Positions 8,869 to 52,309 of a stretch of DNA of 64,000 bases are shown here, one piece after another. Positions within the stretch are counted from its first letter, which is position 1, and each line of letters starts with the position of its first letter. Source of the DNA: Pseudarthrobacter equi (GTDB taxonomy: Bacteria; Actinomycetota; Actinomycetes; Actinomycetales; Micrococcaceae); NCBI RefSeq assembly GCF_900105535.1, contig NZ_LT629779.1, positions 868,001-932,000 on the forward strand. The letters run 5' to 3'. Under the pieces are notes generated by a model that made no database searches, was not told the DNA's origin, and worked only from the letters and a program-made list of their open reading frames with translations. A program made the translations under genes and the position numbers.

Positions 8869-9882
8869 CTATCCGGCCAGGAGGGTGGCGGCTTCCTGGC
8901 GGGTGGTGCCGGAGTCCTGGATGCCGTCGGCGATGTGGGCGAGTTCGGCGGGGATGTCGCGGCCTTTTTTGCGCATGGCGGTGGCCCAGAGGCGGCCGGC
9001 GCGGTAGGAGGAGCGGACCAGGGGGCCGGACATGACGCCGAGGAAGCCGATTTCTTGGGCTTCGTTTTGGAGGTCGACGAATTCCTGGGGTTTGACCCAG
9101 CGGTCCACGGGGAGGTGGCGTTCGGAGGGGCGGAGGTATTGGGTGATGGTGATCAGGTCGCAGCCGGCGGCGTGGAGGTCGCGGAGTGCTTCGGAGATTT
9201 CTTCGCGGGTTTCGCCCATGCCGAGGATGAGGTTGGATTTGGTGACCATGCCCAGGTTGCGGCCTTGGGTGATGACGTCGAGGGAGCGTTCGTAGCGGAA
9301 GGCGGGGCGGATGCGCTTGAAGATCCGGGGGACGGTTTCGACGTTGTGGGCGAAGACTTCGGGTTTGGAGTCGCAGATTGCGGCGATGTGGTCGGGGTTG
9401 CCGGAGAAGTCGGGGATGAGGAGTTCGACGCCGGTGCCGGGGTTCAGTTCGTGGATTTTGCGGACGGTTTCGGCGTAGAGCCAGACGCCTTCGTCTTCGA
9501 GGTCGTCGCGGGCCACGCCGGTGACGGTGGCGTAGCGGAGTTGCATGGATTGGACGGAGCGGGCCACTTTGGTGGGTTCGAACCTGTCCACGGGGGAGGG
9601 TTTGCCGGTGTCGATCTGGCAGAAGTCGCAGCGGCGGGTGCATTCGGAGCCGCCGATGAGGAAGGTGGCTTCTTTGTCTTCCCAGCATTCGAAGATGTTG
9701 GGGCAGCCGGCTTCTTCGCAGACGGTGTGGAGGCCTTCTTTTTTGACCAGGTTCTTGAGTTGGACGAACTCGGGGCCCATTTGGACTTTGGCCTTGATCC
9801 ATTCCGGTTTGCGTTCCACCGGGGTGGCCGCGTTGCGCTGTTCGATCCGCAGCAACTTCCGACCTTCGGGTGCCAATGTCAT
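8869..9882 (-). CDS. lipA: Lipoyl synthase
   Basis: Radical-SAM enzyme that inserts two sulfurs into protein-bound octanoyl groups. In this operon it supplies the lipoyl group for GcvH. Of 337 residues, Cys55, Cys60 and Cys66 ([12 protein letters not shown]) bind the auxiliary sacrificial cluster; Cys81, Cys85 and Cys88 (CTRRCDFC) bind the radical-SAM cluster. All six are present. ATG at 9882 has AAAGGA 7 bases upstream. It is the last gene of the gcv-glyA-sdaA-lipA run. Synonymous codons are strikingly skewed to C- and A-ending forms (GAA, AAA, CAA, CTC), unlike gcvP or glyA beside it. Confidence 0.97.
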
Positions 9883-9910
9883 GATCGATTTCCTTTGATT
9901 GGGTGGTGCC

Positions 9911-9932
9911 GGTGGTTGAGCTTGTCGAAACC
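9911..9932. repeat. Possible short dispersed actinobacterial repeat
   Basis: The sdaA-lipA gap holds the sequence GGTGGTTGAG-CTTGTCGAAACC, which I recognise from memory as a short repeat scattered through many actinobacterial genomes. Only one copy is visible in this window, so repetition is not shown here. Confidence 0.3.
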
Positions 9933-9937
9933 TTCGG

Positions 9938-11395
9938 TCAGCATTCGACGACGTTGACGGCGAGGCCGCCCATGGCGGTTTCCTTGTATTTGGAGGACAT
10001 GTCCTTGCCGGTTTCGCGCATGGTGATGATGACTTCGTCGAGGGAGACCCGGTGGGTGCCGTCGCCCCAGAGCGCCATCTTCGCCGCGTTGATGGCCTTC
10101 GCCGCGGCGATCGCGTTCCGCTCGATGCACGGGACCTGCACCAGCCCGCCGATCGGATCACACGTCAGGCCCAGGTTGTGTTCCATCGCGATTTCCGCGG
10201 CGTTCTCCACCTGCGCCGGGGTGCCGCCCATGACCTCAGCCAGTCCCGCCGCCGCCATCGACGACGCCGAAGCGACCTCGCCCTGGCAGCCCACCTCGGC
10301 ACCGGAAATGGATGCCTGTTCCTTGTAGAGCACCCCCACGGCACCGGCGGCGAGCAGGAACCTGGCCACCACGCCGTCGCGGTCCTCCTGCGTGGCCTGG
10401 TCCATGCCCGGGGCGAAATGCAGCGCGTAGTACAGGACCGCGGGAATGATCCCGGCCGCCCCGTTCGTGGGGGCCGTGACCACACGCCCGCCGGAGGCGT
10501 TCTCCTCGTTCACGGCCAAGGCCACCAGGTTCACCCACTCCTGCCAGTACCTCGGGTCATGGAAATCCCAGTCCGTGAAGTCCAGGTCCTGGCTGTCCAC
10601 GCCCGGACGGGCGCATTCCTTCTTCAACCGGTCGAACCAGTCCGGGGCGCGGCGGCGGACCTTCAACCCACCCGGCAGCACCCCGTCACGCTTCAGCGAG
10701 GTCGCCACGCACGCCTCCATCACGGACCAGATATGCAGCAGCCCCGCCCGGATCTCCTCCTCACCCCGGGAGGACTTCTCGTTGACCAGCATCACATCAC
10801 TGATCCCCAACCCGGTGTCCACGCAATGCTTCAGGAGTTCCGCGGCGGTCCGGAACGGCAGCGGCAGCTCCTTCTTGGACTCATCGAGTTCCTGCTGCGC
10901 GGCGTCCTCCTCGCCCTCACGGACAATGAACCCGCCGCCCACGGAGAAGAACGTCGCCGCGTGCAGCGCCGCCCCGTCCGCGTCCGTCACGGTGAACGTC
11001 ATCCCGTTCGTGTGCCGCGGCAACACCGTCAACGGCCGCAACACGATGTCCTTCACCCCGTACGGCAGCTTCACGCCTTCCCCGTTACCGGCCCCGGCCA
11101 GGTTCAGCGTCCCGGTCTCAGCGATCGCGGCCAGCCGCTCCTCCACCTCAGCCGGCAGGATCCGCTCAGGATGGAACCCTTCCAAACCCAGCAGGACCGC
11201 CGTCATCGTCCCATGCCCATGCCCCGTCGCAGCCAACGACCCATACAGATCCACCCGCAACGAAGCCACCCGGGACAACACCCCGGCACCCCGCAACTCC
11301 TCCACAAACACCGCAGCAGCCCGCATCGGCCCCACAGTATGAGAACTCGACGGCCCAATACCGACAGAGAAAAGGTCGAAGACGCCAACGGCCAT
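9938..11395 (-). CDS. sdaA: L-serine ammonia-lyase (iron-sulfur serine dehydratase)
   Basis: Deaminates L-serine to pyruvate and ammonia, draining the serine that GlyA makes from glycine. The 485-residue single-chain type has a beta domain first ([27 protein letters not shown]) and the alpha domain after about residue 180. [4Fe-4S] cysteines are expected at [28 protein letters not shown] and the C-terminal VVEC. ATG at 11395 follows AGGA 8 bases upstream; the longer in-frame opening to 11485 runs into the structured leader and is rejected. The first 100 codons favour G- and T-ending forms (TTG, GGG, GTG), opposite to lipA downstream. The 328-bp gap to glyA holds palindromic elements. Confidence 0.96.
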
Positions 11396-11432
11396 GGTGG
11401 GATTCCTAACTAAAAACGTGCGTGGTCGGGGT

Positions 11433-11510
11433 GGAAAGGGAGCGGGACATCCTCTGCATGCTGCTCCTTCGTCGCTCTGACGCATGCTGCCGGATGCCCC
11501 GCTCCCTTCC
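11433..11510 (-). repeat. Palindromic element, divergent third copy
   Basis: Read on the minus strand, outer arms GGAAGGGAGCGGG and CCCGCTCCCTTTCC enclose an inner stem GCATGC/GCATGC and a 20-base loop GTCAGAGCGACGAAGGAGCA. This loop matches the one in the 88-bp repeats at 11622 and 13578 at 17 of 20 positions, although the stems are different sequences that still pair. It lies in the leader of sdaA in the sense orientation. Confidence 0.7.
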
Positions 11511-11523
11511 TGCAGGTCCGTCG

Positions 11524-11610
11524 CCTTGGCTCTCGCCTAGCTTGCGCCCTTCACTAGGTGACGGTGCACGGCCCTATGGGGCTGGCATCCAGAAGTGTGC
11601 GTCGCCAAGG
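11524..11610 (-). other. Structured stretch in the sdaA leader
   Basis: CCTTGGC (11524-11530) and GCCAAGG (11604-11610) form distant arms. CCTAG (11536-11540) and CTAGG (11554-11558) form a hairpin inside. It lies between two palindromic elements in the glyA-sdaA gap. No known riboswitch class is recognised, and it may simply be part of a composite repeat. Confidence 0.4.
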
Positions 11611-40370: not shown

Positions 40371-41300
40371 ATGCCAGAATCCTTCTCTCCAGTTGCCGTG
40401 GACGCTTCATTCGTCCACAGCCACCAGTCCACGCCGACGCAAACACCCGCTTCCCCCCACGATCCGCACGCCAGGTCGGGGCAGCTGCGGGAGACCTTCG
40501 AAAACGATTTGGTCCTGGGCTACCTTGACCTCGCCGAAGCACTGGCCTCGCGCTTCGAAGCCCGCGGCCGCGAGCGGGCGGACCTGAACCAGGTGGCCTA
40601 CCTGGGACTGGTCAAGGCCGCCCGTGGTTTCGACCTGTCCAAGGGCGAGAGCTTTCCCGCCTACGCCGCCCCCACCATCACCGGGGAGCTGAAGAGGTAC
40701 CTGCGTGACCGGACCTGGGTGGTCCGCCCGCCGCGGAACATCCAGGACCTGCGCACCCGGATGTTCAGGGCCGAACCGGAACTGACCCAGGCGCTGGGCA
40801 GGACTCCCAGTGTGGAAGAGCTCGCCGGTGAACTGGAAACAGATCCGGCGGAGGTACAGGAGGCCATGTCGGCATCCAGCAGCATGCACCCGGACTCCCT
40901 GGATGCGGTCAACCCGCATTCGGACGCGCCGTCCATCGGCGAATTGCTCGCCTGTCCGGACACGCCCCTGGAACGGCTGGAGGAACTGGCCTGCCTGCGC
41001 GATGCCATGCATGACCTGGACCCGGCGGACAGGGAGCTCCTGTACCGCCGCTACTTCTGCGAGGAAACCCAGGTGCAACTGGGCAAACGGCTTGGCATGT
41101 CGCAAATGCAGGTTTCACGGCGGCTGGCCCGCGTGCTGGTGGAACTCCAGCGCCGCCTCGAAAACAGTTCCCGGCTCGAACCATCCGCCGAATGCCCCGG
41201 CACTGCGACCTCCGGGGGGCGGGCGCAGACCCAACGCGCCGCCCACTCCCACCGGGAGCCCGCCCGGCGCCGCGGTTTTGGCCGGCCGTCGATGCCGTGA
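40371..41300 (+). CDS. SigB/SigF-type alternative sigma factor
   Basis: RNA polymerase sigma factor of the group 3 B/F/G type, 309 residues. Region 2 reads ADLNQVAYLGLVKAARGFDL and FPAYAAPTITGELKRYLRDR, followed by WVVRPPRNIQDL; region 3 covers LGRTPSVEELAGELETDPAEV; region 4 has ETQVQLGKRLGMSQMQVSRRL. An Arg/Pro-rich tail of about 40 residues is extra. ATG at 40371 follows GAGGGA. No anti-sigma or anti-anti-sigma gene is adjacent, which is unusual for this class. It may drive the stress genes around it. Confidence 0.9.
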   Translation: MPESFSPVAVDASFVHSHQSTPTQTPASPHDPHARSGQLRETFENDLVLGYLDLAEALASRFEARGRERADLNQVAYLGLVKAARGFDLSKGESFPAYAAPTITGELKRYLRDRTWVVRPPRNIQDLRTRMFRAEPELTQALGRTPSVEELAGELETDPAEVQEAMSASSSMHPDSLDAVNPHSDAPSIGELLACPDTPLERLEELACLRDAMHDLDPADRELLYRRYFCEETQVQLGKRLGMSQMQVSRRLARVLVELQRRLENSSRLEPSAECPGTATSGGRAQTQRAAHSHREPARRRGFGRPSMP

Positions 41301-41454
41301 CCGGACTGCACTGACTTCCGGCCCGGCCACGGCCGGGCGCGCCACACCACAGATTTCCTATCTTGCCTGTCCAGCGGGCCGGAAACGTTGCTGTCCGACG
41401 CCCGGTGCGATGTCGGCCTGTTTAGGAGCAGCAGCAGGAGGGAACAGGACTGAC

Positions 41455-41991
41455 ATGGGAAGCCCCACAACTGCCAAGATCCGCGCCGTGCTGTTCGACA
41501 GGGATGGAACCCTGGTGGTCGATGTCCCCTACAACGGGGACCCCGCCTTGGTACGGCCCGTGCCCGGTGCGAGGGAAGTGCTGGACAGCCTGCGGGCGGA
41601 CGGCATTGCCACGGGCGTGATCAGCAACCAGTCCGGTATTGCCCGCGGACTCATCAGCGAGGACGACGTTGCCAGCGTCAACGCCAGGGTGGAAGAACTG
41701 CTTGGCCCCTTCGACGTGTGGGAAGTCTGCCCGCACTCGGACCAGGACAACTGTGACTGCCGCAAACCCGCCCCGGGAATGGTTCACAGTGCCTGCAGGA
41801 AGCTGGGTATTGACGAATCCGAAGCGGCCCTGATCGGCGACATCGGCGCCGACGTCCGGGCCGCCGAGGCTGCGGGAGCTACCGGAGTCCTGGTACCCAC
41901 CCCGGTGACCAGGGCCGAGGAAGTGGCTGCCGCCCGGCTGGTGGCACACGACCTGGCCGGCGCCGTCGTCCTCCTCCGGGAGGCGCCGTAA
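41455..41991 (+). CDS. gmhB: D-glycero-D-manno-heptose-1,7-bisphosphate phosphatase (GmhB-like)
   Basis: Removes the C7 phosphate from heptose 1,7-bisphosphate in nucleotide-heptose synthesis. The 178-residue HAD-IIIA protein has AVLFDRDGTLVVD (Asp15 nucleophile, Asp17), the specificity segment GIARGLISEDD, the zinc motif CPHSDQDNCDCRKP (Cys-x-His and Cys-x-Cys) and GDIGADVRAAEAAG. ATG at 41455 follows AGGA. It heads a run of genes with 1-4 bp overlaps. A histidinol-phosphate phosphatase role is possible for this fold, but GmhA and HldE partners downstream favour heptose. Confidence 0.9.
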   Translation: MGSPTTAKIRAVLFDRDGTLVVDVPYNGDPALVRPVPGAREVLDSLRADGIATGVISNQSGIARGLISEDDVASVNARVEELLGPFDVWEVCPHSDQDNCDCRKPAPGMVHSACRKLGIDESEAALIGDIGADVRAAEAAGATGVLVPTPVTRAEEVAAARLVAHDLAGAVVLLREAP

Positions 41992-43079
41992 TGGGGCGCG
42001 TGCTGGTGGCGCGGCTGGACAGCATGGGCGATGTCCTGCTGGCCGGACCCGCAGTGCGGGCAGCCGCCAACGGCCGCGTCCCGGACGGCAGCGGCGCGAA
42101 CCATGTGGTGATGCTGTGCGGCCGGCAGGGCGAGGCCGCCGCGGGACTCCTGCCCGGCGCCGCCGAGGTCTACAGCTGGGACAGCCCGTGGATCATGAAC
42201 CCGGCGCCCAAAATGACGGGCCCCCACGCGGACCGCCTCATCGAGTACGTCCGCAACTCCAGGATTACCGAAGCCGTCATCCTCACCTCGTTCCACCAGT
42301 CCCCGCTGCCGCTGGCACTCCTGCTCCGGCTGGCCGGCGTCGAGCGGATCACGGGCGCGTCAACGGACTATGCCGGTTCGCTGCTCGATGTGCGGCTCAA
42401 ACCCGGCGAGGACTTCCCCGAAGACCAGCCGGAAGCCGAACGTGCGCTGGGCATCGCCGAAGCCGCAGGATTCAGGCTCCCCCAGGGTGACGACGGCAAG
42501 CTCCACATCACTCCCGGCCCGGATGTCCGTGACCTCGTCGGCGACGGGCCCTACGTGGTGGTCCATCCCGGCGCGGCCGTACCGGCAAGGGCGTGGCCCC
42601 CGCTCCACCACGCCGCCGCCGTCGAACTCCTCCAGGGCGCCGGCCACCGCGTGGTGGTGACCGGCGGCCCCGGCGAAACCTCGTTGACGGCCACCGTGGC
42701 TGGCCCCTCCGCGCTGGACCTCGGCGGCCGGACCGATGTGCACACGCTCGCGGGCGTCATGGCCGGCGCCGATGCTGTGGTCACCGGAAACACCGGCCCC
42801 GCCCACCTGGCAGCAGCGGTGGGCACGCCGGTGGCCTGCCTCTTCTCCCCCGTGGTCCCGGCCATCCGCTGGGCACCGTACGGGGTGCCGCTGGAGCTGC
42901 TGGGAGACCAGAACGCGGCCTGCCGGATGACCCGCGCCCGCATCTGTCCAGTCCCCGGCCACCCCTGCCTGGACTCCGTATCCCCCGAAGAAGTGGTGGC
43001 CGCCGTTGAACGCCTGATCAGCGGCGTGAGCTCCTTCAGCACCCACGTCAGCACCCGTAGAAAGGCCCGCAACAGATGA
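41991..43079 (+). CDS. Family 9 glycosyltransferase, heptosyltransferase-like
   Basis: Probably transfers heptose from a nucleotide-heptose donor. The 362-residue GT-B protein opens with VLVARLDSMGDVLLAGPAVRA and carries the GT9 donor-site segments VVHPGAAVPARAWP, VVTGGPGETSLT and GNTGPAHLAAAVGTPVACLF. The start overlaps the gmhB stop as TAATG; the end overlaps the next gene as ATGA. GT9 enzymes are best known as LPS heptosyltransferases (WaaC/WaaF), so its presence in a Gram-positive cluster is notable. The acceptor is unknown. Confidence 0.9.
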   Translation: MGRVLVARLDSMGDVLLAGPAVRAAANGRVPDGSGANHVVMLCGRQGEAAAGLLPGAAEVYSWDSPWIMNPAPKMTGPHADRLIEYVRNSRITEAVILTSFHQSPLPLALLLRLAGVERITGASTDYAGSLLDVRLKPGEDFPEDQPEAERALGIAEAAGFRLPQGDDGKLHITPGPDVRDLVGDGPYVVVHPGAAVPARAWPPLHHAAAVELLQGAGHRVVVTGGPGETSLTATVAGPSALDLGGRTDVHTLAGVMAGADAVVTGNTGPAHLAAAVGTPVACLFSPVVPAIRWAPYGVPLELLGDQNAACRMTRARICPVPGHPCLDSVSPEEVVAAVERLISGVSSFSTHVSTRRKARNR

Positions 43080-44104
43080 GAATCCTGCTCTGGCATGTCC
43101 ACGGATCCTGGACGGACGCCTTCGTCCGCGGCAGGCACGAATACTTGCTCCCCGTCCTGCCCGACGGCGGGCCATGGGGCCTGGGCCGCGCCGGGCGCAA
43201 CTGGCCGGACTCCGTGCGGGAGGTGGACCTGGCGACGCTGGACGCAGGCTCTGTTGACGCCGTCGTGCTGCAACGGCCCGAAGAAATCAGCGACGTCTCG
43301 CGGGTCCTGAGCCGCACCCCCGGAGGGGACCTGCCCGCGGTCTTCGTGGAGCACAACACGCCCAAGGGTGATTTCCCCTTCACCCGGCACCCGCTTGCGG
43401 ACCAGAACACCATCCCCCTGGTGCACGTAACCCACTTCAACCGGCTCGCCTGGGACAACGGATCAGCCCTGTCCACAGTCATCGAGCACGGCATCCCCGA
43501 CCCCGGCCAGCTATATACGGGGGAGCTGCCGGACCTGGGCGTGGTGGTCAACGAACCCGTGCGCCGCGGCCGGGTGACGGGCACGGACCTGCTGCCTGCC
43601 TTCGCCGACGTGGCGCCCCTGCAGGTGTTCGGGATGAAGACCGAGGGATTGGCAGTTGCCGCCGGCATCGGAACGGACCGGCTCACCCCGCGCGGCGACC
43701 TGAAAACGCAGGAACTCCACCGGGAGCTGGCACGCTGCCGTGTCTACCTGCACCCCATGCGCTGGACTTCCCTGGGCCTGTCCCTGCTGGAGGCCATGCA
43801 CCTGGGCATGCCCGTGGTGGTGCTGGCCGCCACCGAAGCTCCCCGGGCAGTCCCGCCGGAGGCCGGAATAGTGTCCGCGGACATCGACGAGCTGCTCCGG
43901 TGCGCCCGCAGGCTGGTCGCCAACCCGGATGAAGCACGACGGCGGGGCGTCGCCGCGCGCGAGGCCGCACTGGCCCGCTACGGCCTGGGCAAATTCCAGG
44001 ACAGCTGGGACGGGCTCCTGGCGGATCTCGGGCGCAGCCCCTCTGCCCGCCACCGGCCGGACGGGCAGGTCCTTGTTCCGGCGCAAGAAAGGAAGACCGC
44101 ATGA
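43076..44104 (+). CDS. GT-B glycosyltransferase (GT1/GT4-like)
   Basis: 342 residues. The N-terminal half has few hallmarks. The C-terminal donor domain shows LARCRVYLHPMRWTSLGLSLLEA, quoted in part as SLGLSLLEAMHLGMPVVVLA, which contains the family E-x7-E region. Donor and acceptor are unknown. No membrane segment. The ATG and the stop both overlap neighbours by 4 bp, so it is locked into the heptose operon. Confidence 0.8.
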   Translation: MRILLWHVHGSWTDAFVRGRHEYLLPVLPDGGPWGLGRAGRNWPDSVREVDLATLDAGSVDAVVLQRPEEISDVSRVLSRTPGGDLPAVFVEHNTPKGDFPFTRHPLADQNTIPLVHVTHFNRLAWDNGSALSTVIEHGIPDPGQLYTGELPDLGVVVNEPVRRGRVTGTDLLPAFADVAPLQVFGMKTEGLAVAAGIGTDRLTPRGDLKTQELHRELARCRVYLHPMRWTSLGLSLLEAMHLGMPVVVLAATEAPRAVPPEAGIVSADIDELLRCARRLVANPDEARRRGVAAREAALARYGLGKFQDSWDGLLADLGRSPSARHRPDGQVLVPAQERKTA

Positions 44105-45360
44105 AGATCGCGATGATTTCCGAGCACGCCAGTCCGCTGGCAGCCCTGGGCGGGGTGGACGCCGGCGGGCAGAACGTCCACGTCGCCGCACTGTCCGAAG
44201 CGCTGGCAAGGCGCGGACACCAGGTCACCGTATACACCCGCAGGGACGCGACAGAGCTTCCCGCCCGCGTAAAGGTGGGACCCGGTTTTGACGTGGTCCA
44301 TGTGGACGCCGGCCCTCCGCAGCACGTTCCCAAGGACGAGCTGCTGCCGTTCATGGGCGAACTGGCCGACGGCGTGGCCCGGGACTGGGACCAGCGGCCC
44401 CCCGACGTGGTCCACGGACACTTCTGGATGTCCGGCCTGGCCGCCCTGGACGCCGCCCGGCGGGCCGGCTCGGGCTACCGGGTCCCCGTCATCCAGACCT
44501 TCCACGCACTGGGCACGGTCAAGCGCCGGCACCAGGGTGCCGAGGACACCAGCCCGCAGGAACGCCGCTGGCTTGAACCGGGCGTCGGGCGGTCCGCGGA
44601 CCGGATCATCGCCACCTGCTCGGACGAGGTGTTCGAGCTCAAAGCCATGGGCATCGACACGGGAAAGATTTCCATTGCACCCTGCGGCGTGGACCTGGAT
44701 GTCTTCGGACCGGATGGTCCGGTGGCCGCCAAACCCAGGTCCCACCGCATCCTTTCCGTGGGCAGGCTGGTGCCGCGCAAGGGTGTGGACCTGGTGATCC
44801 GCGCCCTGCCGCACTTGCGCGCAGCGGGCTTTGCCGACGTCGAACTCCTCATCGTTGGCGGCGGCGGGGACTCGGGTGCCCTTCACTCAGACCCCGAGGT
44901 GCGCCGGTTGCTGGACCTTGCCGCAGAACTCGGCGTCCAGGACCAGGTGGTACTTGAAGGCCAGGTGCCCCGCGGGGACATGCCCGGCATCTTCCGCAGC
45001 GCCGATGCCGTGGTCTGCGCCCCTTGGTACGAGCCGTTCGGCATCGTTCCCCTCGAAGCCATGGCGTGCGGCGTGCCGGTGGTGGCCGCAGCGGTGGGCG
45101 GGCTGCGGGACACCGTGGTGGACCATGCCACCGGCCTGCACGTCCCGCCCCGCGACCCGAAAGCCATCGCGTCGGCCGTGGCCATGCTGTTGGGCAACCC
45201 CTCCCTGCGGTCCGAACTCGGTGATGCCGGCCAGCGCCGCGCACGTGCCCGCTATTCGTGGGACCGGGTGGCCGCGGAATCCGAAAAGGCGTACAAGCTC
45301 GCGGTGGCGGGTGCCGCCGCCCGCCCCGCAGCCATCCCCATGGAAGGAGCGGCACTGTGA
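44101..45360 (+). CDS. Family 4 glycosyltransferase
   Basis: Retaining GT-B enzyme of 419 residues. The N-terminal acceptor side reads SEHASPLAALGGVDAGGQNV and VVHGHFWMSGLAAL, very like MshA and sucrose-synthase relatives. The donor side has ILSVGRLVPRKGVDLVIRAL, VLEGQVPRGDMPGIFRSADA and APWYEPFGIVPLEAMACGVP with the E-x7-E motif. The Gly-rich entry suggests a phosphorylated-cyclitol or sugar-phosphate acceptor, but that is inference. Overlaps by 4 bp at both ends. Confidence 0.87.
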   Translation: MKIAMISEHASPLAALGGVDAGGQNVHVAALSEALARRGHQVTVYTRRDATELPARVKVGPGFDVVHVDAGPPQHVPKDELLPFMGELADGVARDWDQRPPDVVHGHFWMSGLAALDAARRAGSGYRVPVIQTFHALGTVKRRHQGAEDTSPQERRWLEPGVGRSADRIIATCSDEVFELKAMGIDTGKISIAPCGVDLDVFGPDGPVAAKPRSHRILSVGRLVPRKGVDLVIRALPHLRAAGFADVELLIVGGGGDSGALHSDPEVRRLLDLAAELGVQDQVVLEGQVPRGDMPGIFRSADAVVCAPWYEPFGIVPLEAMACGVPVVAAAVGGLRDTVVDHATGLHVPPRDPKAIASAVAMLLGNPSLRSELGDAGQRRARARYSWDRVAAESEKAYKLAVAGAAARPAAIPMEGAAL

Positions 45361-46058
45361 CTGCTGAATCATCCCTCCGCGACATCGACCTGGCGCACCT
45401 GGCCATGGCACCGGCCCTCCCTGCGGTGCTGCCCGGTGCCGCATACGTGGATTCCGCCAGCGCCGACGCCGTCAGGCTGCACCTGGATAACGTGGTTCCC
45501 GCCCTGGAATCCCTGCGCAACCAGTCCGGCCGGCTCGCCGCCTGGGGTGTGGAGCTTGCCCAGCGGATGCTCCGCGGGCAGCGGCTGCTGGCAGCCGGAA
45601 ACGGCGGGTCCGCCGCCGAAGCCCAGCACCTCACGGCCGAGCTGGTGGGACGGTTCGACGGCGAGCGGGTCCCGTTCTCCGCCATCTCCCTGCACGCGGA
45701 AACATCCGCCATGACGGCCATCGCCAACGACTACGGGTACGACGACGTCTTCGCCCGCCAGGTGCGCGCCCACGGCCGCTCCGGCGACGTGCTGGTCCTG
45801 CTGTCCACCAGCGGCAAAAGCCCCAACCTGCTGCGCGCAGCGGAGACCGCATCCCGCCTGAACATCACCACCTGGGCGCTGACCGGTGCAGGGCCGAACC
45901 CTTTGGCCAGCGTCTGCGATGAAGCCGTGATGATCGATGCCCTCAACGCGAACGCCCAGGAGGGCCACCTGATCGCCCTGCATGCCGTGTGCCGGGCCTT
46001 CGACCTCGAGGTGGCCCGCCACAGCCCCGCCATCCTGCAGCAGGGAGGCCTGCCATGA
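45357..46058 (+). CDS. gmhA: Sedoheptulose 7-phosphate isomerase (GmhA-like)
   Basis: Converts sedoheptulose 7-phosphate to D-glycero-D-manno-heptose 7-phosphate, the first committed step to activated heptose. The SIS-domain protein carries the GmhA signature LLAAGNGGSAAEAQHLTAEL (Gly81 onward), VLVLLSTSGKSPNLLRAAET, and the C-terminal catalytic His region AQEGHLIALHAVC. At 233 residues it is about 40 longer than typical, all at the N-terminus. GTG at 45357 with AAGGAG upstream overlaps the GT4 stop as GTGA; ATGA overlap with the HldE-like gene. Confidence 0.92.
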   Translation: MTAESSLRDIDLAHLAMAPALPAVLPGAAYVDSASADAVRLHLDNVVPALESLRNQSGRLAAWGVELAQRMLRGQRLLAAGNGGSAAEAQHLTAELVGRFDGERVPFSAISLHAETSAMTAIANDYGYDDVFARQVRAHGRSGDVLVLLSTSGKSPNLLRAAETASRLNITTWALTGAGPNPLASVCDEAVMIDALNANAQEGHLIALHAVCRAFDLEVARHSPAILQQGGLP

Positions 46059-47515
46059 GGATCGTGGTGGTGGGCGACGTGATGCTGGACGTGGACCTCT
46101 CCGGCGAGGCGACCCGGTTGAGCCCGGATGCACCCGTCCCGGTGGTGGACGTCTCCGGGATCCGCAGCCGCGCCGGCGGCGCCGGCCTGGTGGCACGGAT
46201 GCTGGCCGGGGAAGGCTGGCCCGTCACCCTGGTGACGGTGTTCGGCGATGACGACGCCGGGCGGCAACTTCGCGGCGAACTCGCCGGCGTGCGGCTGGTG
46301 TCCGGCCCCAGCGGCCACCCCACACCGGTGAAAACCCGGGTCCGGGCCGGCTCCCATGCAGTGGTCCGGTTCGACCAGGGGTGCGGCAAGCCACCGGTAC
46401 CGGAGATGTCCCCCGCCATGCTTCGTGCCGTGGAGGAAGCCGGTGCCATCATCGTGGCCGACTACGGGAGGGGAGTGGCGGCCAGCCCGGAGCTGCGCCG
46501 CCTGCTTGCCAGGCGCACGGCCGAAGTGCCCGTCATCTGGGACCCGCATCCGTCCGGGCCGGAACCGGTGCCGGGAGTTGCCGTGGTAACGCCCAACCTG
46601 GCGGAGGCCACCAAAGCCGCCGCCACTTACGCAAGCCCCGCTTCAGGTGACGGCGCGCCCGGTGACCCGGCCGCCGGCGTCGGACGCATCCTGCTGGAAC
46701 GCTGGCAGGGCAACGCGGTCCTGGTGACCAAGGGTTCGGACGGGGCCGTGCTGCTGCAGCGGGACAGCGTGTCCCCCCTGGATGTTCCGGCGCCGCGGGT
46801 GGAAGCCGGGGATCCCTGCGGGGCCGGCGACCGCCTGGTTGCAGGCCTGGCAGTCCACCTCTTGGCCGGCAGCGCCCTGCCCGAGGCGGCGGGGCTGGCA
46901 GTCAACGATGCCGCCGACTTCCTGGGCGCCGGTGGCGTCGCTGCCTTGCCTGACCGGAGCTCGGACCACGGCGTGGTCCGGGACGACGGCGGGGACGCAT
47001 CGGGACCAACCGGTGCGTCGGTGGAACGGCCGGCGGACGGACCCACACGGCTCCGGCGCGCCACCGAACCGCTGCTGCTGGCCCGCGCGGTCCGCGGCAA
47101 CGGCGGAACGGTGGTGGCCACCGGCGGCTGCTTCGACCTGCTGCACGCCGGCCACGTGCGCTCGCTGGCCGCCGCCCGCGAACTCGGCGACTGCCTCATT
47201 GTCTGCCTCAACTCGGACAGCTCGGTCCGGCGGCTCAAGGGCGCGGAACGCCCCATCATCGGCCAGCAGGACCGGGCTGAACTCCTGCTGGCCATGGAGT
47301 GCGTGGACGCCGTGATGGTGTTCGACGAAGATACTCCGGAAGTTGCCCTGGACCGGCTTCGCCCTGACATCTGGGTCAAGGGCGGCGACTACAAAGGTTC
47401 CCGGTTGCCCGAAGCGGAGCTCGTGGAGAGCTGGGGCGGCAGGTGCGTCACTGTTCCCTACCACCCGGCACGGTCCACCACCGGCTTGGCCGATGCGCTC
47501 GCCAAGGTGAGCTGA
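46055..47515 (+). CDS. hldE: HldE-like heptose kinase / nucleotidyltransferase, first copy
   Basis: Bifunctional protein of 486 residues: heptose 7-phosphate kinase (about 1-310) and heptose 1-phosphate nucleotidyltransferase (about 350-486). The kinase has VVVGDVMLDVDLSGEATRLS and GDPCGAGDRLVAGLA with the catalytic GAGD. Its sugar-site segment is SRAGGAGLVARML, lacking the Asn of the usual GGAAN motif. The transferase has GGCFDLLHAGHVRSLAAARE (HxGH at about 361-364) and VKGGDYKGSRL. An acidic Gly/Asp-rich linker joins them. ATG 46055 overlaps gmhA. The degenerate sugar site hints at altered kinase specificity. Confidence 0.9.
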   Translation: MRIVVVGDVMLDVDLSGEATRLSPDAPVPVVDVSGIRSRAGGAGLVARMLAGEGWPVTLVTVFGDDDAGRQLRGELAGVRLVSGPSGHPTPVKTRVRAGSHAVVRFDQGCGKPPVPEMSPAMLRAVEEAGAIIVADYGRGVAASPELRRLLARRTAEVPVIWDPHPSGPEPVPGVAVVTPNLAEATKAAATYASPASGDGAPGDPAAGVGRILLERWQGNAVLVTKGSDGAVLLQRDSVSPLDVPAPRVEAGDPCGAGDRLVAGLAVHLLAGSALPEAAGLAVNDAADFLGAGGVAALPDRSSDHGVVRDDGGDASGPTGASVERPADGPTRLRRATEPLLLARAVRGNGGTVVATGGCFDLLHAGHVRSLAAARELGDCLIVCLNSDSSVRRLKGAERPIIGQQDRAELLLAMECVDAVMVFDEDTPEVALDRLRPDIWVKGGDYKGSRLPEAELVESWGGRCVTVPYHPARSTTGLADALAKVS

Positions 47516-47599
47516 CTTTCCCTATCCACCCAAATGCCGCACCACACAGATCAATCGCACAACACCCCGACGATTTGATTCCCCATTGAAAGGAACACC

Positions 47600-48301
47600 A
47601 TGACTGCAGATGCCAACAACCCCGGACGCGTACTGGTTACCGGAGGCGCCTCCGGACTGGGTGCCGCCGTCGTCGACGCCGTCCTGAAGGCAGGCGGAAC
47701 GCCCGTGGTCCTGGACCGCGATATCAGCAGCGTGTCCGGCGTCAAGGCGTTCGAAGTGGACGTTGCGGACCGGCTGGCCGTGGAAGCGGCCGTGCGTGAA
47801 GCGGCCGAAACGGTGGGCGGCCTGGACGGCGTGGTGACCGCCGCCGGCATCGACCGCTGCGGCAAGCTCGCCGACGTGGACGCCACGGAGTGGGAGAAGG
47901 TCATCGGGGTGAACCTGATGGGCACCGTCTCCGTGGTGCGCGCCGCGCTGCCCTACCTGAAGGCCAACCACGGCCGCGTCATCACTGTCGCCTCCACGCT
48001 GGGCAAACGCGCCGTGGCCGATGCCACCGCCTACTGCGCCTCCAAATTCGGTGTGGTGGGTTTCAGCCACGCCCTCGCGGCGGAAACCGGAGGCGAGATC
48101 GGTGTCACCACCATCATCCCCGGCGGCATGAAGACCCGGTTCTTCGATGACCGCACGGAACAGTACAAGCCGCAGGACGATTCACGCCTGAACGATCCCG
48201 CCAACACCGCCCAGGCCATCCTGTTCGCGTTGAACCAGCCCCGTGGCTGCGAAGTCCGCGAAATGCTGATCTGCCACGAGGAAGAAGGGTCCTGGCCCTA
48301 A
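47600..48301 (+). CDS. Classical SDR oxidoreductase in the heptose cluster
   Basis: NAD(P)-dependent dehydrogenase of 233 residues: VLVTGGASGLGAAVVDAVLK (cofactor), DGVVTAAGIDRCG, GRVITVASTLGKR (Ser), and AYCASKFGVVGFSH (Tyr and Lys). The C-terminus is FabG-like. AAAGGA lies 6 bases before the ATG, 84 bp after the first hldE. It is not an extended SDR, so it cannot be a normal HldD 6-epimerase. Together with the aldehyde dehydrogenase that follows it may oxidise an alcohol to an acid on a sugar or metabolite. Unknown substrate. Confidence 0.85.
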   Translation: MTADANNPGRVLVTGGASGLGAAVVDAVLKAGGTPVVLDRDISSVSGVKAFEVDVADRLAVEAAVREAAETVGGLDGVVTAAGIDRCGKLADVDATEWEKVIGVNLMGTVSVVRAALPYLKANHGRVITVASTLGKRAVADATAYCASKFGVVGFSHALAAETGGEIGVTTIIPGGMKTRFFDDRTEQYKPQDDSRLNDPANTAQAILFALNQPRGCEVREMLICHEEEGSWP

Positions 48302-48342
48302 ACCGGCCACAGGCCACGTCCGCACACGACGGGAGGAACCCC

Positions 48343-49770
48343 ATGCCCACCACAGCGATCGACACACCAGCAGGCCGGGACACGGCCGAATCCGGCGGCA
48401 TCACCATCACTGACCCGCGCACCGGCGAGGTCCTTTGGACAGTCCACGAAGCAGGCCCTGAAGCGGTGAACCATGCCGTGGAGGTGGCCCGCAGGGCTGC
48501 CCCGGAATGGGCTGCCACCGCGCCCGCGGACCGCGGGGCGGCCCTCAAGGCTGCGGCCCGGGCACTGGACTCCGCCGCGCAGGAGCTGGCCGGGCTCAAC
48601 GCCAGCGAAACCGGGCGGCCGGTGGAGGAAGCGCTGGCCGGCATCGGAGCGGCCGTTTCCACCCTTGAGCAGTACGCCGAGCTTGCCCCGGTACATCGGG
48701 GCCACAGCCTCCGGGGCAACCGGCTCGCCGCCGACTACACCGTGGCCGAGCCGCGCGGGGTCGCGGTCCTCCTGACTCCGTGGAACGACCCCGTGGCAGT
48801 GGCCTGCGGCCTGATCGGTGCCGCCCTGGCCACGGGCAACGCCGTCATCCACAAGCCGAGCGAACGCTGCCCGAGGCTGGGCGAGGCGCTCGGAGAGGTC
48901 CTGGCGCCGGCCTTCCCGCCCGGAGTGCTCCTCACCGTTTCCGGCGGTGCCGGGGTTGGCGCCCTGCTGTCCCAGGCCGAGGTGGACGTACTGGCGCACG
49001 TGGGTTCAAGCGCATCAGGTGCCAGGATTGCCCGTGCGGGCGCCCTGACCGGCGCACACGTGCTGCGCGAAAACGGCGGCAACGATCCGCTCCTGGTGGA
49101 CCGCGACGTCGACCCCACCTGGGCGGCGGAGCAGGCCGCCATCGGCGCCTTCAGCAACAGCGGCCAGATCTGCACGGCAGTGGAACGGATCTACGTGCAC
49201 CGGGACATCACGGAACCATTCACCGCGGCGCTCAAGGCGGAGGCCGCGCGCCGCAACGGCAGCGGATCCGTGGCCCCGCTGGTGGACGGGCGGATGCGCG
49301 ACGAGGTCCACGCGCAGGTCACCGAAGCCCTCGGGGCCGGCGCCATTGCCGTGGAGGGCGGTGACCTGCCGGACGGGCCGGGATCCTTCTACCCGGCCAC
49401 CGTGCTGGTTGGCTGCACCGCACAGATGCAGGTGATGACTGAGGAAACCTTCGGCCCGGTTGCCCCGGTGCAGGTGGTGGACTCGTTCCACGACGGCCTG
49501 CGGCTCGCGTGCAGCGGCAAGTACGGCCTCGCGGCCACCGTCCTGAGCAGCAACATCGCCCACATCCAGCAGGCCGTGGCGGCGCTGCCGGTGGGCACGG
49601 TCAAGGTCAACGCTGTATTCGGCGGAGCCCCGGGCGGCGCAGCGCAGCCCCGCGGCGACAGCGGAGCCGGGTTCGGCTACGGGCCCGAACTGCTGGACGA
49701 ATTCAGCCAGGTCAAGGTGGTCCACATCTCCGCGCCGCCCGCGCCCGCTGCCGAACAGGCCCGGCCATGA
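48343..49770 (+). CDS. Aldehyde dehydrogenase
   Basis: NAD(P)-dependent aldehyde oxidation, 475 residues. The catalytic Glu243 (LRENGGNDPLLV) and Cys277 (SNSGQICTAVERIYV) are 34 residues apart, as in active family members. VLLTPWNDPVAVACGLIGAAL and IHKPSERCP form the cofactor site; EETFGPVAPVQ is the C-terminal signature. The usual ELGGK motif is altered to ENGGN. GGGAGGAA precedes the ATG, and ATGA overlap ties it to the second hldE. The aldehyde is unknown. Confidence 0.9.
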   Translation: MPTTAIDTPAGRDTAESGGITITDPRTGEVLWTVHEAGPEAVNHAVEVARRAAPEWAATAPADRGAALKAAARALDSAAQELAGLNASETGRPVEEALAGIGAAVSTLEQYAELAPVHRGHSLRGNRLAADYTVAEPRGVAVLLTPWNDPVAVACGLIGAALATGNAVIHKPSERCPRLGEALGEVLAPAFPPGVLLTVSGGAGVGALLSQAEVDVLAHVGSSASGARIARAGALTGAHVLRENGGNDPLLVDRDVDPTWAAEQAAIGAFSNSGQICTAVERIYVHRDITEPFTAALKAEAARRNGSGSVAPLVDGRMRDEVHAQVTEALGAGAIAVEGGDLPDGPGSFYPATVLVGCTAQMQVMTEETFGPVAPVQVVDSFHDGLRLACSGKYGLAATVLSSNIAHIQQAVAALPVGTVKVNAVFGGAPGGAAQPRGDSGAGFGYGPELLDEFSQVKVVHISAPPAPAAEQARP

Positions 49771-51326
49771 GCCTGCACCCGGACACTGCCGACCTTTCCA
49801 CCCAGCGGGCGCTCGCCGAATGGCTGCCCGGACGCTTGGCGGCAGAACAGCCGAGCGTGCTGGTGATCGGTGACCTCATGCTGGACGGCTGGTGGAGCGG
49901 CACCATCGAGCGGCTCTGCAGGGAAGCTCCGGCGCCGGTGGTGGACATCGCCGTCCGGGACTCTTTTCCGGGCGGTGCGGCAAACACCGCCATGAACCTG
50001 GCCGCCCTGGGCGCCCGGGTCTCCGTTGCCGGCATCATCGGCACGGACGACGCCGGTGCGGACCTGCGCCGCCAGCTCGAGACGGCGGGCATCGACGTCC
50101 GGCACCTGCACTCGCACCCGGACATGGTGACCACCACCAAGATCCGGATCAGCAGCGGCGGCCAGGTGATGCTCCGCATCGACGACGCCGCCCGGACCGT
50201 GCCCGCCGAAGCGCTCGCCGAGCTGGCCTCCTCGGTGCGCGCCGCCGTCGAACGCCAGGATGCCGTGCTGGTGTGCGACTACGGCAACGGCGTGCTCGCG
50301 GACCCCGTGCAGGAAAGCCTGGTGGCAGCCCTGGCCAATGCCGGGACTGCCGGGAATGCCGGTAAACGCCGCCCGCTGGTGGTGGTCGATTCCCATGACC
50401 CGCGGCCCTGGGCGCCGCTGCGGCCGGACCTGGTCACGCCCAACGCGCAGGAGGCCGCACGGCTCCTCGATGTCCGGCTCCCCGCCGGGCCGGACCGGGC
50501 GGACACTGTCACGGGGCAGGCACCGGCGCTGCTGGCAGCCACCGGCGCCGCAGCGGTGGTGGTCACCCTGGACCGGGACGGCACCGTGCTCATCAGGCCC
50601 GACGGCGCCACCCACCGCACATGGGCACGCCCGGCTGCCGAGAAGCAGGCCTCCGGGGCGGGCGATACGTTCGTGGCGGCGCTGACCCTGGCGCGCTCTG
50701 CCGGGTTGCCGCTGACGGCCAGCCTGGACCTCGCCCAGTCGGCCGCCGACGTGGTGGTGCACCAGCCCGGGACCTCGGTATGCAGCACCAGCCAGCTCAG
50801 CCGGTACCTGGCAGCCTTCGCGGACACCGCCCTGGGAGCTGACGAGCTGCAACAGCAACTGGACCTGCACCGGTCCGAGGGGCAGCGCATCGTGCTGACC
50901 AACGGCTGCTTCGACGTCCTGCACAGCGGCCACACCCGCTACCTGAACCAGGCCAAACAGCTGGGCGATGTCCTGGTGGTGGCGCTGAACAGCGATGACT
51001 CCGTCAGCCGCCTCAAAGGGCCGGGGCGGCCCATCAACGCCGTCGCGGACCGCGCGGCTGTGGTGGCGGCCCTGAGCTGCGTGGACTACGTGACTGTTTT
51101 TGACACCCCCACCGCCGAACCGCTGATCCGGCAGCTCCGCCCCGACGTCTATGCCAAGGGCGGTGACTACACGCCGGAAATGCTGGCGGAGACGCCGGCA
51201 GTTGAGGAGTCAGGCGGCCGGGTGGCCATCCTGGACTACGTGGCCGAGCGTTCCACCACCGCCGTGGTCAACCGCATCCGCGGCGGCCAGGGAGCTGCAA
51301 CGGCACTCCAGGGCTCGGGGGAGTAG
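49767..51326 (+). CDS. hldE: HldE-like heptose kinase / nucleotidyltransferase, second copy
   Basis: 519 residues with the same two-domain layout as the 46055 gene. The kinase has VLVIGDLMLDGWWSGTIERL, the canonical sugar site FPGGAANTAMNLAALGARVS, and ASGAGDTFVAALTLA. The transferase domain has TNGCFDVLHSGHTRYLNQAK (HxGH at about 383-386) and YAKGGDYTPEML. Here all PfkB motifs are intact, closer to Gram-negative HldE than the first copy. ATG 49767 overlaps the aldehyde dehydrogenase stop. Having two HldE-like proteins suggests different anomers, nucleotides or sugars, or division of labour. Confidence 0.91.
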   Translation: MSLHPDTADLSTQRALAEWLPGRLAAEQPSVLVIGDLMLDGWWSGTIERLCREAPAPVVDIAVRDSFPGGAANTAMNLAALGARVSVAGIIGTDDAGADLRRQLETAGIDVRHLHSHPDMVTTTKIRISSGGQVMLRIDDAARTVPAEALAELASSVRAAVERQDAVLVCDYGNGVLADPVQESLVAALANAGTAGNAGKRRPLVVVDSHDPRPWAPLRPDLVTPNAQEAARLLDVRLPAGPDRADTVTGQAPALLAATGAAAVVVTLDRDGTVLIRPDGATHRTWARPAAEKQASGAGDTFVAALTLARSAGLPLTASLDLAQSAADVVVHQPGTSVCSTSQLSRYLAAFADTALGADELQQQLDLHRSEGQRIVLTNGCFDVLHSGHTRYLNQAKQLGDVLVVALNSDDSVSRLKGPGRPINAVADRAAVVAALSCVDYVTVFDTPTAEPLIRQLRPDVYAKGGDYTPEMLAETPAVEESGGRVAILDYVAERSTTAVVNRIRGGQGAATALQGSGE

Positions 51327-51356: not shown

Positions 51357-51380
51357 ATGACTGAGGCGGGGCACGGGTAA
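51357..51380 (+). CDS. Leaderless 7-codon upstream ORF
   Basis: ATG at 51357 encodes MTEAGHG and stops with TAA whose last A is the first base of the next gene's ATG (TAATG). It could load ribosomes on a leaderless mRNA and hand them to the main gene, which lacks a ribosome-binding site of its own. Inference from sequence alone. Confidence 0.5.
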   Translation: MTEAGHG

Positions 51381-52309
51381 TGGCGAAACGCGGAAAGTCG
51401 GGTGGCCGCGGGCGTGCTGCGGCCGGCGTCGTGGAAAGCCCGGGTCCCGGGTCCAAAGGTCCGGTGGAAGGCGTCTACTACGTTGATACCGGTGACTGCG
51501 AGCTGATCGCGGACCAGGACAACTCCACCGGCTGGCTCCTGAAAATCAACGGTGTCATGAGCTCGCACATCGACCTCGCGGACCCGCTGTTCCTCGACTT
51601 TGAATACATGCGGTGGATCGCCGCGCTCATCGAATCCCGCTGGCCGCCGTCGGACGCTTCGTCCACCCGGGGCGGGGCCGCCGATAACCCGGGGAAGCTG
51701 CGCGGCCTCCACCTCGGCGGCGGAGCCTGCTCCCTCGCCAGGTACTTCGCTGCTGCCTACCCCGACGCGCGGCAGGTGGTGGTGGAACTTGACGGCAAGC
51801 TCGCCGAGTACGTCCGCGGCTGGTTCGACCTGCCCAAGGCGCCGCTGCTCAGGATCCGGGTGGGGGAGGCCCGGGAGGTCACCGAAACCCTCACCGCGGA
51901 CACCCGCGACTTCATCATCCGGGACGTCTTCGCCGGCGCTTTAACGCCGCGGCCACTGACCACCGCCGAGTTCAACCAGCATGTCCGCCGGGTCCTTGCC
52001 CCGGGCGGCGTGTACGTGGTGAACTCCGGGGACGCCCCGGACCTGAAGAGTGCCCGCGAGGACGCCGCCACGATCGCCGCTTCCTTCGAACACACCCTGA
52101 TCATCGCCGATCCCGCCATGCTCAAGGGGCGGCGCTACGGAAACATGGTGATGGCCGGCAGCGACGTCCCCTTCGGTGACGATCCCAAACTGGCCCGCAG
52201 GCTGCTGGGCGGAGCGGTACCGGCGCACATCTGGGACGACGCCCAGGTCCGCGCCTTCGCGGCCGGCATCCCGGTGCGCCACGACGCCCCGGCACCTCCG
52301 GAGGATTAG
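51380..52309 (+). CDS. Spermidine-synthase-like SAM-binding protein
   Basis: 309 residues, related to polyamine aminopropyltransferases and fused spermidine-synthase-like proteins. A basic Gly/Arg N-terminus precedes the fold. RGLHLGGGACSLARYFAAAY is the nucleotide-binding loop, VVVELDGKLAEYVRGWFDLP the acidic strand, and DFIIRDVFAGALTPRPLTTAEF the catalytic-Asp region. The typical DD/DG polyamine motif is not evident, so it may be a methyltransferase or another transferase. Starts at the TAATG overlap with a 7-codon ORF. Its stop overlaps the convergent LysR gene's stop by 4 bp. Confidence 0.78.
   Translation: MAKRGKSGGRGRAAAGVVESPGPGSKGPVEGVYYVDTGDCELIADQDNSTGWLLKINGVMSSHIDLADPLFLDFEYMRWIAALIESRWPPSDASSTRGGAADNPGKLRGLHLGGGACSLARYFAAAYPDARQVVVELDGKLAEYVRGWFDLPKAPLLRIRVGEAREVTETLTADTRDFIIRDVFAGALTPRPLTTAEFNQHVRRVLAPGGVYVVNSGDAPDLKSAREDAATIAASFEHTLIIADPAMLKGRRYGNMVMAGSDVPFGDDPKLARRLLGGAVPAHIWDDAQVRAFAAGIPVRHDAPAPPED

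Follow-up and report, generated by a model that had tools for sequence, protein, structure and literature searches.

The closest described relative of the locus considered here is SCO6179-6190 of Streptomyces coelicolor, the cwg operon, for which PMC6767563 and PMC5839063 cite Hong et al. 2002. The passages of PMC6767563 that deal with the operon describe it as induced by vancomycin and partly dependent on sigmaE, and they call its product only a predicted cell wall glycan. The annotations that PMC5839063 prints for SCO6180-6188 (cwgB-J) run transferase, transferase, dehydratase and transferase, then, past SCO6184, which does not appear in the table, transferase, phosphoheptose isomerase, bifunctional synthase/transferase and a closing transferase. 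The published hints at heptose are annotations, cwgH as a putative phosphoheptose isomerase and cwgE as a putative heptosyl transferase. Here we compare with this operon nine consecutive plus-strand open reading frames (ORFs) of Pseudarthrobacter equi, located at 41455-51326 of a 64-kb stretch (the window; contig NZ_LT629779.1, positions 868,001 to 932,000) of one 4.46 Mb chromosome. In our opinion they constitute the Micrococcaceae variant of an actinobacterial cwg-type cell-wall-glycan cluster that probably makes and transfers activated heptose, a reading to which we give a probability of roughly 0.72.

All nine genes point in the same direction, and the ORF check found no internal stops. 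A GmhB-like phosphatase of the HAD type (heptose 1,7-bisphosphate 7-phosphatase, 41455..41991) is followed by a heptosyltransferase-like protein of glycosyltransferase (GT) family 9 and cwgE type (GT9, 41991..43079), by a GT-B glycosyltransferase of the Glyco_trans_1_4 type that is cwgF-type by position (GTb, 43076..44104; PF13692, 2.5e-10) and by a GT4 glycosyltransferase that is cwgG-type by position and MshA-like (44101..45360; TIGR03449, 255 bits with a cut-off of 462.5). Next come a GmhA-like sedoheptulose-7-phosphate isomerase (45357..46058), HldE1, a fused heptose-7-phosphate kinase/heptose-1-phosphate nucleotidyltransferase of the cwgI lineage (46055..47515), a classical short-chain dehydrogenase/reductase (SDR, 47600..48301), an aldehyde dehydrogenase (ALDH, 48343..49770) and HldE2, a second kinase/nucleotidyltransferase from another lineage (49767..51326). 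GmhB and GT9 overlap by 1 bp; overlaps of 4 bp join GT9 to GTb, GTb to GT4, GT4 to GmhA, GmhA to HldE1 and ALDH to HldE2, and spacers of 84 bp and 41 bp separate HldE1 from SDR and SDR from ALDH, respectively. The start codon of GmhA is GTG at 45357, which corrects an earlier call. An identity of the cluster GT4 as MshA was rejected, the match over the cut-off (504.8 bits) being encoded elsewhere in the genome. The original prediction for this window had described just such an array of nine genes, with overlaps of 1-4 bp and one gap of 84 bp, and the ORF and junction checks bear it out.

The family assignments rest on several kinds of comparison. Pfam profiles match with E-values of 3e-20 for Glyco_transf_9 (PF01075), 1e-21 for SIS_2, 3e-17 for HAD, 3e-41 for adh_short and 1e-101 for Aldedh, and the two HldEs match PfkB at 2e-22 and 1e-35 and CTP_transf_like at 2e-17 and 5e-17. 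The conserved motifs of these enzymes are intact: the HAD protein GmhB has DRDGT and CPH...CDC, GmhA has AQH and QEGH, each of the two HldEs has GAGD, GCFDxLHxGH and KGGDY, SDR has YxxxK and ALDH has GQxC. Among solved structures, those closest to GmhA are phosphoheptose isomerases (1tk9 at 5e-38, 5i01 at 1e-37) and those closest to GmhB are D,D-heptose bisphosphate phosphatases (4pnh at 6e-19, 2gmw at 3e-17). For the HldE halves they are the Burkholderia heptose-7-phosphate kinase BcHldA (3e-19 for HldE1, 5e-32 for HldE2) and 5x9q, which was deposited as a putative cytidylyltransferase (2e-38 and 1e-32). The AlphaFold model of HldE1 (pLDDT 84, pTM 0.66) has an HldA-like fold, since Foldseek matches 1-7 are all BcHldA (best 5e-23), and the GAGD motif of the kinase half is found at residue 256 in HldE1 and 297 in HldE2. 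The model of the cluster GT9 (pLDDT 85, pTM 0.87) finds only GT9 proteins among Foldseek matches 1-9, including WaaF at 2e-16, the Veillonella structure 3tov and WaaC, so that profile and fold agree on the family. The structure comparison that had been proposed for these proteins covered the folds of GT9 and HldE1 and, by sequence, GmhA and HldE2. Structure matches of SDR and ALDH comprise hundreds of solved enzymes with many substrates and indicate no particular one.

Heptose is, in our opinion, the best reading of these enzymes, though not a proven one. GmhA would convert sedoheptulose 7-phosphate to heptose 7-phosphate, the kinase halves of the HldEs would phosphorylate this at C1, GmhB would remove the 7-phosphate, and the nucleotidyltransferase halves would place the sugar onto ADP, possibly also onto CDP or UDP. 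The resulting nucleoside diphosphate (NDP) sugar would be NDP-D-glycero-D-manno-heptose and not its L,D epimer, because no HldD reaches the cut-off: the best match in the genome scores 127 of 274.6 bits, and HldD was rejected on that score. GT9 proteins would then transfer heptose, and GT4 and GTb other sugars, onto a wall or surface glycan that may be made or remodelled under stress; the full system would take in two further GT9 proteins encoded elsewhere in the genome. The enzyme families and the order of steps are those of the Gram-negative ADP-heptose pathway (GmhA, HldE, GmhB, HldD and WaaC/WaaF of E. coli). Unlike in that pathway, there is no HldD over the cut-off, a profile search of the genome did not find LpxC, and the kinase pocket of HldE1 is altered; therefore the acceptor would not be lipid A-Kdo, and lipopolysaccharide (LPS) as the product was rejected for want of LpxC. 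The original prediction of an NDP-heptose pathway together with heptosyltransferase-type GTs in an actinobacterium is supported as a probable one, the pathway most likely serving a surface glycan. In Rhodococcus ruber, PMC12298843 describes that loss of the GDP-heptose gene gmhD removes capsule material, which is in line with a surface polymer here. There too an actinobacterium links the activation of heptose to a polymer of its surface, but by a GDP-heptose route with other enzymes, and the two systems are likened by description only.

The core of the cluster is not peculiar to this organism. In a phylum-wide sample of 396 genomes, HldE1 as the query gave matches at 1e-40 in 44, 11 of which, by a count over the listed matches, are only 35-42% identical and mostly closer to HldE2. 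Among 20 loci taken from these 44 genomes, 19 have five or more of the six core genes (GmhB to HldE1) within 20 kb and ten have all six in the order of the window; GTb is present in 18. The fullest form reads carbamoyltransferase, GmhB, GT9, GTb, GT4, GmhA, HldE1, SDR and a second GT9. SDR occurs in 17 of the 20 loci (two of these only 36-37% identical), and ALDH lies near four of the clusters on the opposite strand. Three loci from one genus with genomes of 5-6 Mb (L119, L123, L124) place GTb-GT4 before the carbamoyltransferase and carry a SigB/F-like sigma gene a few kb behind the second GT9.

A second scan, of relatives carrying names, started from 566 and kept 80 loci, of which 76 are Streptomyces according to their titles. 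In 61 of the 80 the order of the six core genes is kept, the exact series carbamoyltransferase-GmhB-GT9-GTb-GT4-GmhA-HldE1-GT9 is found in 45, and SDR in eight. In the Streptomyces violaceoruber copy, a sugar epimerase/dehydratase, the carbamoyltransferase and a GT2 precede GmhB. In 11 of the 80 loci, a site that differs from the cwg sigmaE promoter given in PMC6767563 at no more than 6 of 29 positions (1 of 29 in the best case) lies 1.26-1.54 kb ahead of the carbamoyltransferase; the other 69 have matches with 8-11 mismatches only, in random-looking places except in L152, and in the S. violaceoruber locus (L161) the S. coelicolor promoter was not found within 3 mismatches. Because the gene order of these relatives fits the annotations printed for SCO6180-6188 and the promoter is so placed, we take the Streptomyces loci to be cwg operons; the identity draws on relatives, on those annotations and on that promoter. 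An identity of cwgA as HldD was rejected (69 bits with a cut-off of 274.6), the best model being a dTDP-glucose dehydratase. Among the papers listed by our literature searches, none has heptose in Arthrobacter as its subject and none combines 'cwg operon', heptose and Streptomyces.

The wide distribution bears on whether the product could be a secreted natural product containing heptose, similar to septacidin or hygromycin, rather than a wall glycan. Heptose antibiotics of actinobacteria do share the early steps, as described in PMC10948575 and PMC11573728, and the septacidin and hygromycin B pathways use the same sedoheptulose-7-phosphate route (PMC10948575); the likeness is by description and not by sequence, and no antibiotic scaffold genes were seen here. 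One locus, L115, would fit such a product better, with GmhA and HldE in one ORF near 9631-11583, a fusion of the tridomain type, and no cluster GTs. However, many families share this core together with its GTs, which is unlike a product specific to a strain; in Streptomyces the corresponding operon is under an envelope-stress sigma factor (PMC6767563), and none of the ten proteins scanned belongs to a nucleoside or aminocyclitol family. We consider a secreted product quite unlikely. The fusion occurs in L115 only, among 136 loci that could be judged, and was rejected for the window cluster on a fusion check. Tang et al. reportedly described NDP-heptose synthetases in actinobacteria in 2022. 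For tri- and didomain NDP-heptose synthetases, Tang et al. 2024 tie an Arg at the STTR5 position to the use of ATP, CTP and UTP (PMC11573728, PMC11461863). Both HldEs of the window belong to the didomain type and have Arg before STT, but the flanks of the motif are unlike: YHPARSTT and YVAERSTT compared with (F/L)XXGRSTT. Other HldE2s often have His in place of that Arg.

In the family the cluster takes a form of its own. We compared 40 family loci, 20 of them from the genus and 20 chosen to cover the genera of the family. All six core genes stand in order in 38, the other two being cut by the end of a contig or stretch; GTb was found in 39 and SDR adjoins HldE1 in 36. Both HldEs are present in 36 loci, none of which has the carbamoyltransferase, while four loci from two other genera show the phylum form with carbamoyltransferase and one HldE. 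ALDH accompanies 29 of the 36 twin-HldE loci and is absent in seven. In a sample of 101 genus genomes, from whose strong-match members the 20 genus loci were taken, all 66 with a strong HldE match have two HldEs by a count over the listed matches, the second in pieces in G052; counted likewise, 149 family genomes comprise 34 with two HldEs, eight with one and two (G106, G202) with partial matches only.

The window resembles the S. coelicolor operon in the core order GmhB-GT9-GTb-GT4-GmhA-HldE1, in an HldE1 that falls in one clade with Streptomyces HldE, and in a stress sigma factor that is known there and proposed here. It differs in that the genome has no carbamoyltransferase (no PF02543 match), the second and third GT9 lie elsewhere, ALDH and HldE2 are extra, SDR is present although only eight of the 80 named loci have it, and a SigB/F-type element is found where cwg has a promoter for sigmaE of the extracytoplasmic function (ECF) group; no cwgA-type epimerase or GT2 was seen in the window cluster, the whole genome not having been searched for these. 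New in Micrococcaceae are the second HldE lineage, the lack of the carbamoyltransferase, the SigB/F-type element and the splitting off of a GT9 pair. The original prediction had presented the cluster as exceptional, and this part is not supported, given the same core in many actinobacterial families and the match to cwg; its interpretation as a whole is partly supported. It did not touch on the two deep HldE lineages, on the division of the system over two places or on the promoter-like element. The cluster is known in kind, its widespread core having been familiar under the name cwg for twenty years, and what rises above the ordinary is the link between cwg and heptose, the pairing of unlike HldEs, a GT9 set in two places and a promoter of another type.

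In the family, a second GT9 (GT9up) accompanies the cluster in 29 of the 40 loci: 25 twin loci have it ahead of GmhB in divergent orientation, and in the four loci with carbamoyltransferase it follows HldE1. A third (GT9mid) sits between SDR and ALDH/HldE2 in 29. Both are missing from seven family loci and from the window cluster. In the window genome they form an adjacent pair at C1:2,514,205-2,516,522, 1.6 Mb from the cluster, with 61 and 62% identity to their L061 counterparts; all seven similarly reduced relatives have an adjacent pair outside the cluster as well, which makes eight of eight with the window genome. In L240 the GT9up match contains a stop, that of L242 is broken in two with the order of the pair reversed, and three GT9mid stretches have one stop that a shorter later match does not cover. 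The joint departure of GT9up and GT9mid from the cluster, and their retention, speak for a single system comprising all three GT9 proteins. Since the cwgJ-type second GT9, expected behind HldE1/SDR, is not in the window cluster and stands elsewhere beside the third, we call the window cluster a derived variant rather than a strict cwg operon. The split also qualifies the description of the cluster as complete-looking: every sugar-nucleotide step has an enzyme, but two partner GT9 genes are elsewhere in the genome.

The two HldEs are of different descent. In a tree of 45 rows (27 HldE1, 12 HldE2, E. coli HldE and five distant actinobacterial proteins), all 27 HldE1 rows, including Streptomyces HldE, lie on one side of a branch with support 100/100, the actinobacterial cwgI clade, and the 12 HldE2s form a clade (100/97) on the other side together with E. 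coli HldE and the five distant proteins. HldE2 as a recent copy of HldE1 was rejected on this ground. As a query over the phylum sample HldE2 matches at 1e-70 in 13 of 396 genomes, and the host's class holds only two of these, the window genome and one of the same genus; the 120 best relatives of HldE2, where organism names are printed with them, are Arthrobacter or Pseudarthrobacter. Because HldE2 is so rare in the host's class and of a separate lineage, it was probably acquired, maybe together with ALDH, and retained as a functional partner. One locus from a distant actinobacterium (L230, 8652-18737) has GmhA, GmhB, an HldE2-like gene, GT9, GT9mid, GTb, GT4, SDR, ALDH and GT9mid in one run and is possibly the kind of donor from which the ALDH/HldE2 module came. 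In another locus (L229) a cwg-like cluster with carbamoyltransferase (71%) has an HldE2-like enzyme in place of an HldE1-like one.

One could suppose that HldE2 is a redundant or decaying duplicate, since one HldE seems to be enough in most other actinobacteria sampled and in eight family genomes (four of the eight checked as loci). We find this very unlikely: HldE2 is a separate lineage, the two enzymes are kept together in all 66 strong-match genomes of the genus, and the ratio of nonsynonymous to synonymous substitution rates (dN/dS) of HldE2 is 0.04-0.18. Over 13 gene or domain segments compared with three relatives dN/dS is 0.04-0.23, which points to purifying selection on all, with the HldE1 kinase segment (0.16-0.23) among the less constrained.

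The kinase pockets differ as well: HldE1 has GGAGL, DPHP and CGAGDR where HldE2 has GGAAN, DSHD and SGAGDT, the Asp of GAGD being present in both. HldE2 has the Asn of GGAAN in 36 of 36 rows and SGAGDT in the window; HldE1 has WDPHP for DPKG and CGAGDR for (S/T)GAGDT. These motif counts refer to 41 HldE1 and 36 HldE2 rows, window included, from which translations with stops or shorter than 380 residues were dropped, and the simple motif search took a wrong stretch or none in some rows (with the HldE2 STT motif, for example, in 12 of 36). Such differences raise the possibility, which we hold as a tentative one, that HldE1 and HldE2 act on different phosphates of heptose or another sugar, or on different nucleotides, so that two activated sugars result, one of which SDR and ALDH may oxidise to a hepturonic acid. 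Two deep HldE lineages kept together, SDR and ALDH with catalytic residues between the HldEs, and the recurrence of ALDH near phylum clusters and in L230 fit this idea. On the contrary, ALDH is dispensed with in the seven twin loci mentioned, the cluster has only one GmhA and one GmhB, and the solved enzymes that SDR and ALDH resemble act on many substrates. Oxidation of a heptose carbon is thus one possible role of SDR and ALDH. A more far-reaching idea, which we regard as doubtful, is that a native cwgI-type enzyme with a changed kinase pocket and an acquired canonical one would supply two activated heptoses, from which three GT9s would build a general-stress-induced heptoglycan of the Gram-positive wall resembling an LPS core; cwg would then be the same system without the second arm.

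As to regulation, a sigma factor gene of the SigB/SigF/SigG group (40371..41300, plus strand; Sigma70 r2, r3 and r4 domains; TIGR02980, 217.6 bits, just under the cut-off of 234.35) lies 154 bp upstream of the cluster, and we propose it as a regulator of the cluster. A homologue is found on the GmhB side in 32 of the 40 family loci, the four loci with carbamoyltransferase not included. A SigB/F-type promoter-like element, GTTTAG-N14-GGGAAC (41420..41445, plus strand), ends 9 bp before the GmhB start codon; its 3' part (GGGAA) overlaps a Shine-Dalgarno-like AGGAGG. The pattern GTTT-N14..17-GGG[AT]A occurs within 160 bp upstream of GmhB in 30 of the 38 loci with GmhB where 0.25 would be expected (background rate 0.0067 per 172 nt), the loci being related, so that the counts are not independent events; 26 of the 30 matches begin with GTTTAG. 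It occurs twice in the whole window, and it fits the SigB/SigF consensus described in PMC8346170 and PMC4694148. Of the eight misses, four are the loci with carbamoyltransferase and four are near-misses by eye (three GTTTAG...GGGCA, one GATTAG...GGGGTA). Control positions gave 0 of 38 before SDR, 0 of 29 before ALDH and 0 of 40 before HldE2 (four of those 40 being HldE1). The controls before GT9up (0 of 40) and GT9mid (4 of 40) used best tblastn matches, which are another GT9 in about a quarter of the loci, and the three matches before 32 sigma genes are the GmhB elements themselves, at positions near -18000. No such element was found near the relocated GT9 pair.

Several observations weigh against the proposal of a cwg-type cluster for activated heptose. 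Only the nucleotidyltransferase domains come to an NCBIfam heptose-enzyme cut-off (TIGR02199, 181.5 bits: HldE2 189.2; for HldE1 the protein scan gives 179.3 and the genome scan 182.5). GmhA scores 143 of 209 bits with TIGR00441, GmhB 73 of 150 and, with NF006506, 113.6 of 178; the full-length model NF008454 (521 bits) gives 283.8 for HldE1 and 364.6 for HldE2, and the kinase model TIGR02198 (345 bits) 157.8 and 223.4. HldE1 has Leu at the Asn position of the canonical GGAAN, which is invariant in 16 and 23 aligned sequences, and the NDSG of solved GT9s reads GNTG in the cluster GT9. The six-gene order is not kept in ten of the 20 phylum loci: five have GTb-GT4 ahead of the carbamoyltransferase, and in the rest a gene is missing, displaced or cut off, L115 having no GTs. 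In the genus, 35 of 101 genomes have no or only a weak HldE match, and the trait is therefore dispensable. The scan of ten proteins showed none for a flippase, ligase or lipid carrier, and all of the proposed chemistry is read from genes.

The missed cut-offs and the altered HldE1 pocket would also be expected if these proteins were paralogues acting on hexose or pentose phosphates. We consider this unlikely, given that four heptose-pathway families co-occur with GT9 and that, by sequence or by fold, heptose enzymes are among the best solved relatives of each. The GGAAN signature presumably has a role in binding the sugar. Within the heptose reading, an HldE1 without this Asn and a cluster GT9 with GNTG mean that the substrates of both may be altered. 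In GNTGPAH of the cluster GT9, the N, T, P and H are invariant over 21 aligned rows, WaaF and 3tov having NDSG; the relocated GT9mid retains NDSG and GT9up has ADTG. This suggests a changed donor or acceptor site in the cluster protein.

The analysis points to candidate genes, to a sugar to seek and to extra GT9 genes to include. If NDP-heptoses are indeed made, ligands of ALPK1, a mammalian sensor, would be present in harmless bacteria of the soil, actinobacteria among them, a possibility in line with the NDP-heptose enzymes across kingdoms and ALPK1 ligands described in PMC11573728 and PMC11461863.

Behind the cluster, a spermidine-synthase-like protein is encoded at 51380-52309 of the window, 53 bp past HldE2 (NF037959, 1.5e-17), and this gene and a LysR-type gene behind it are both present in 12 of the 40 family loci.

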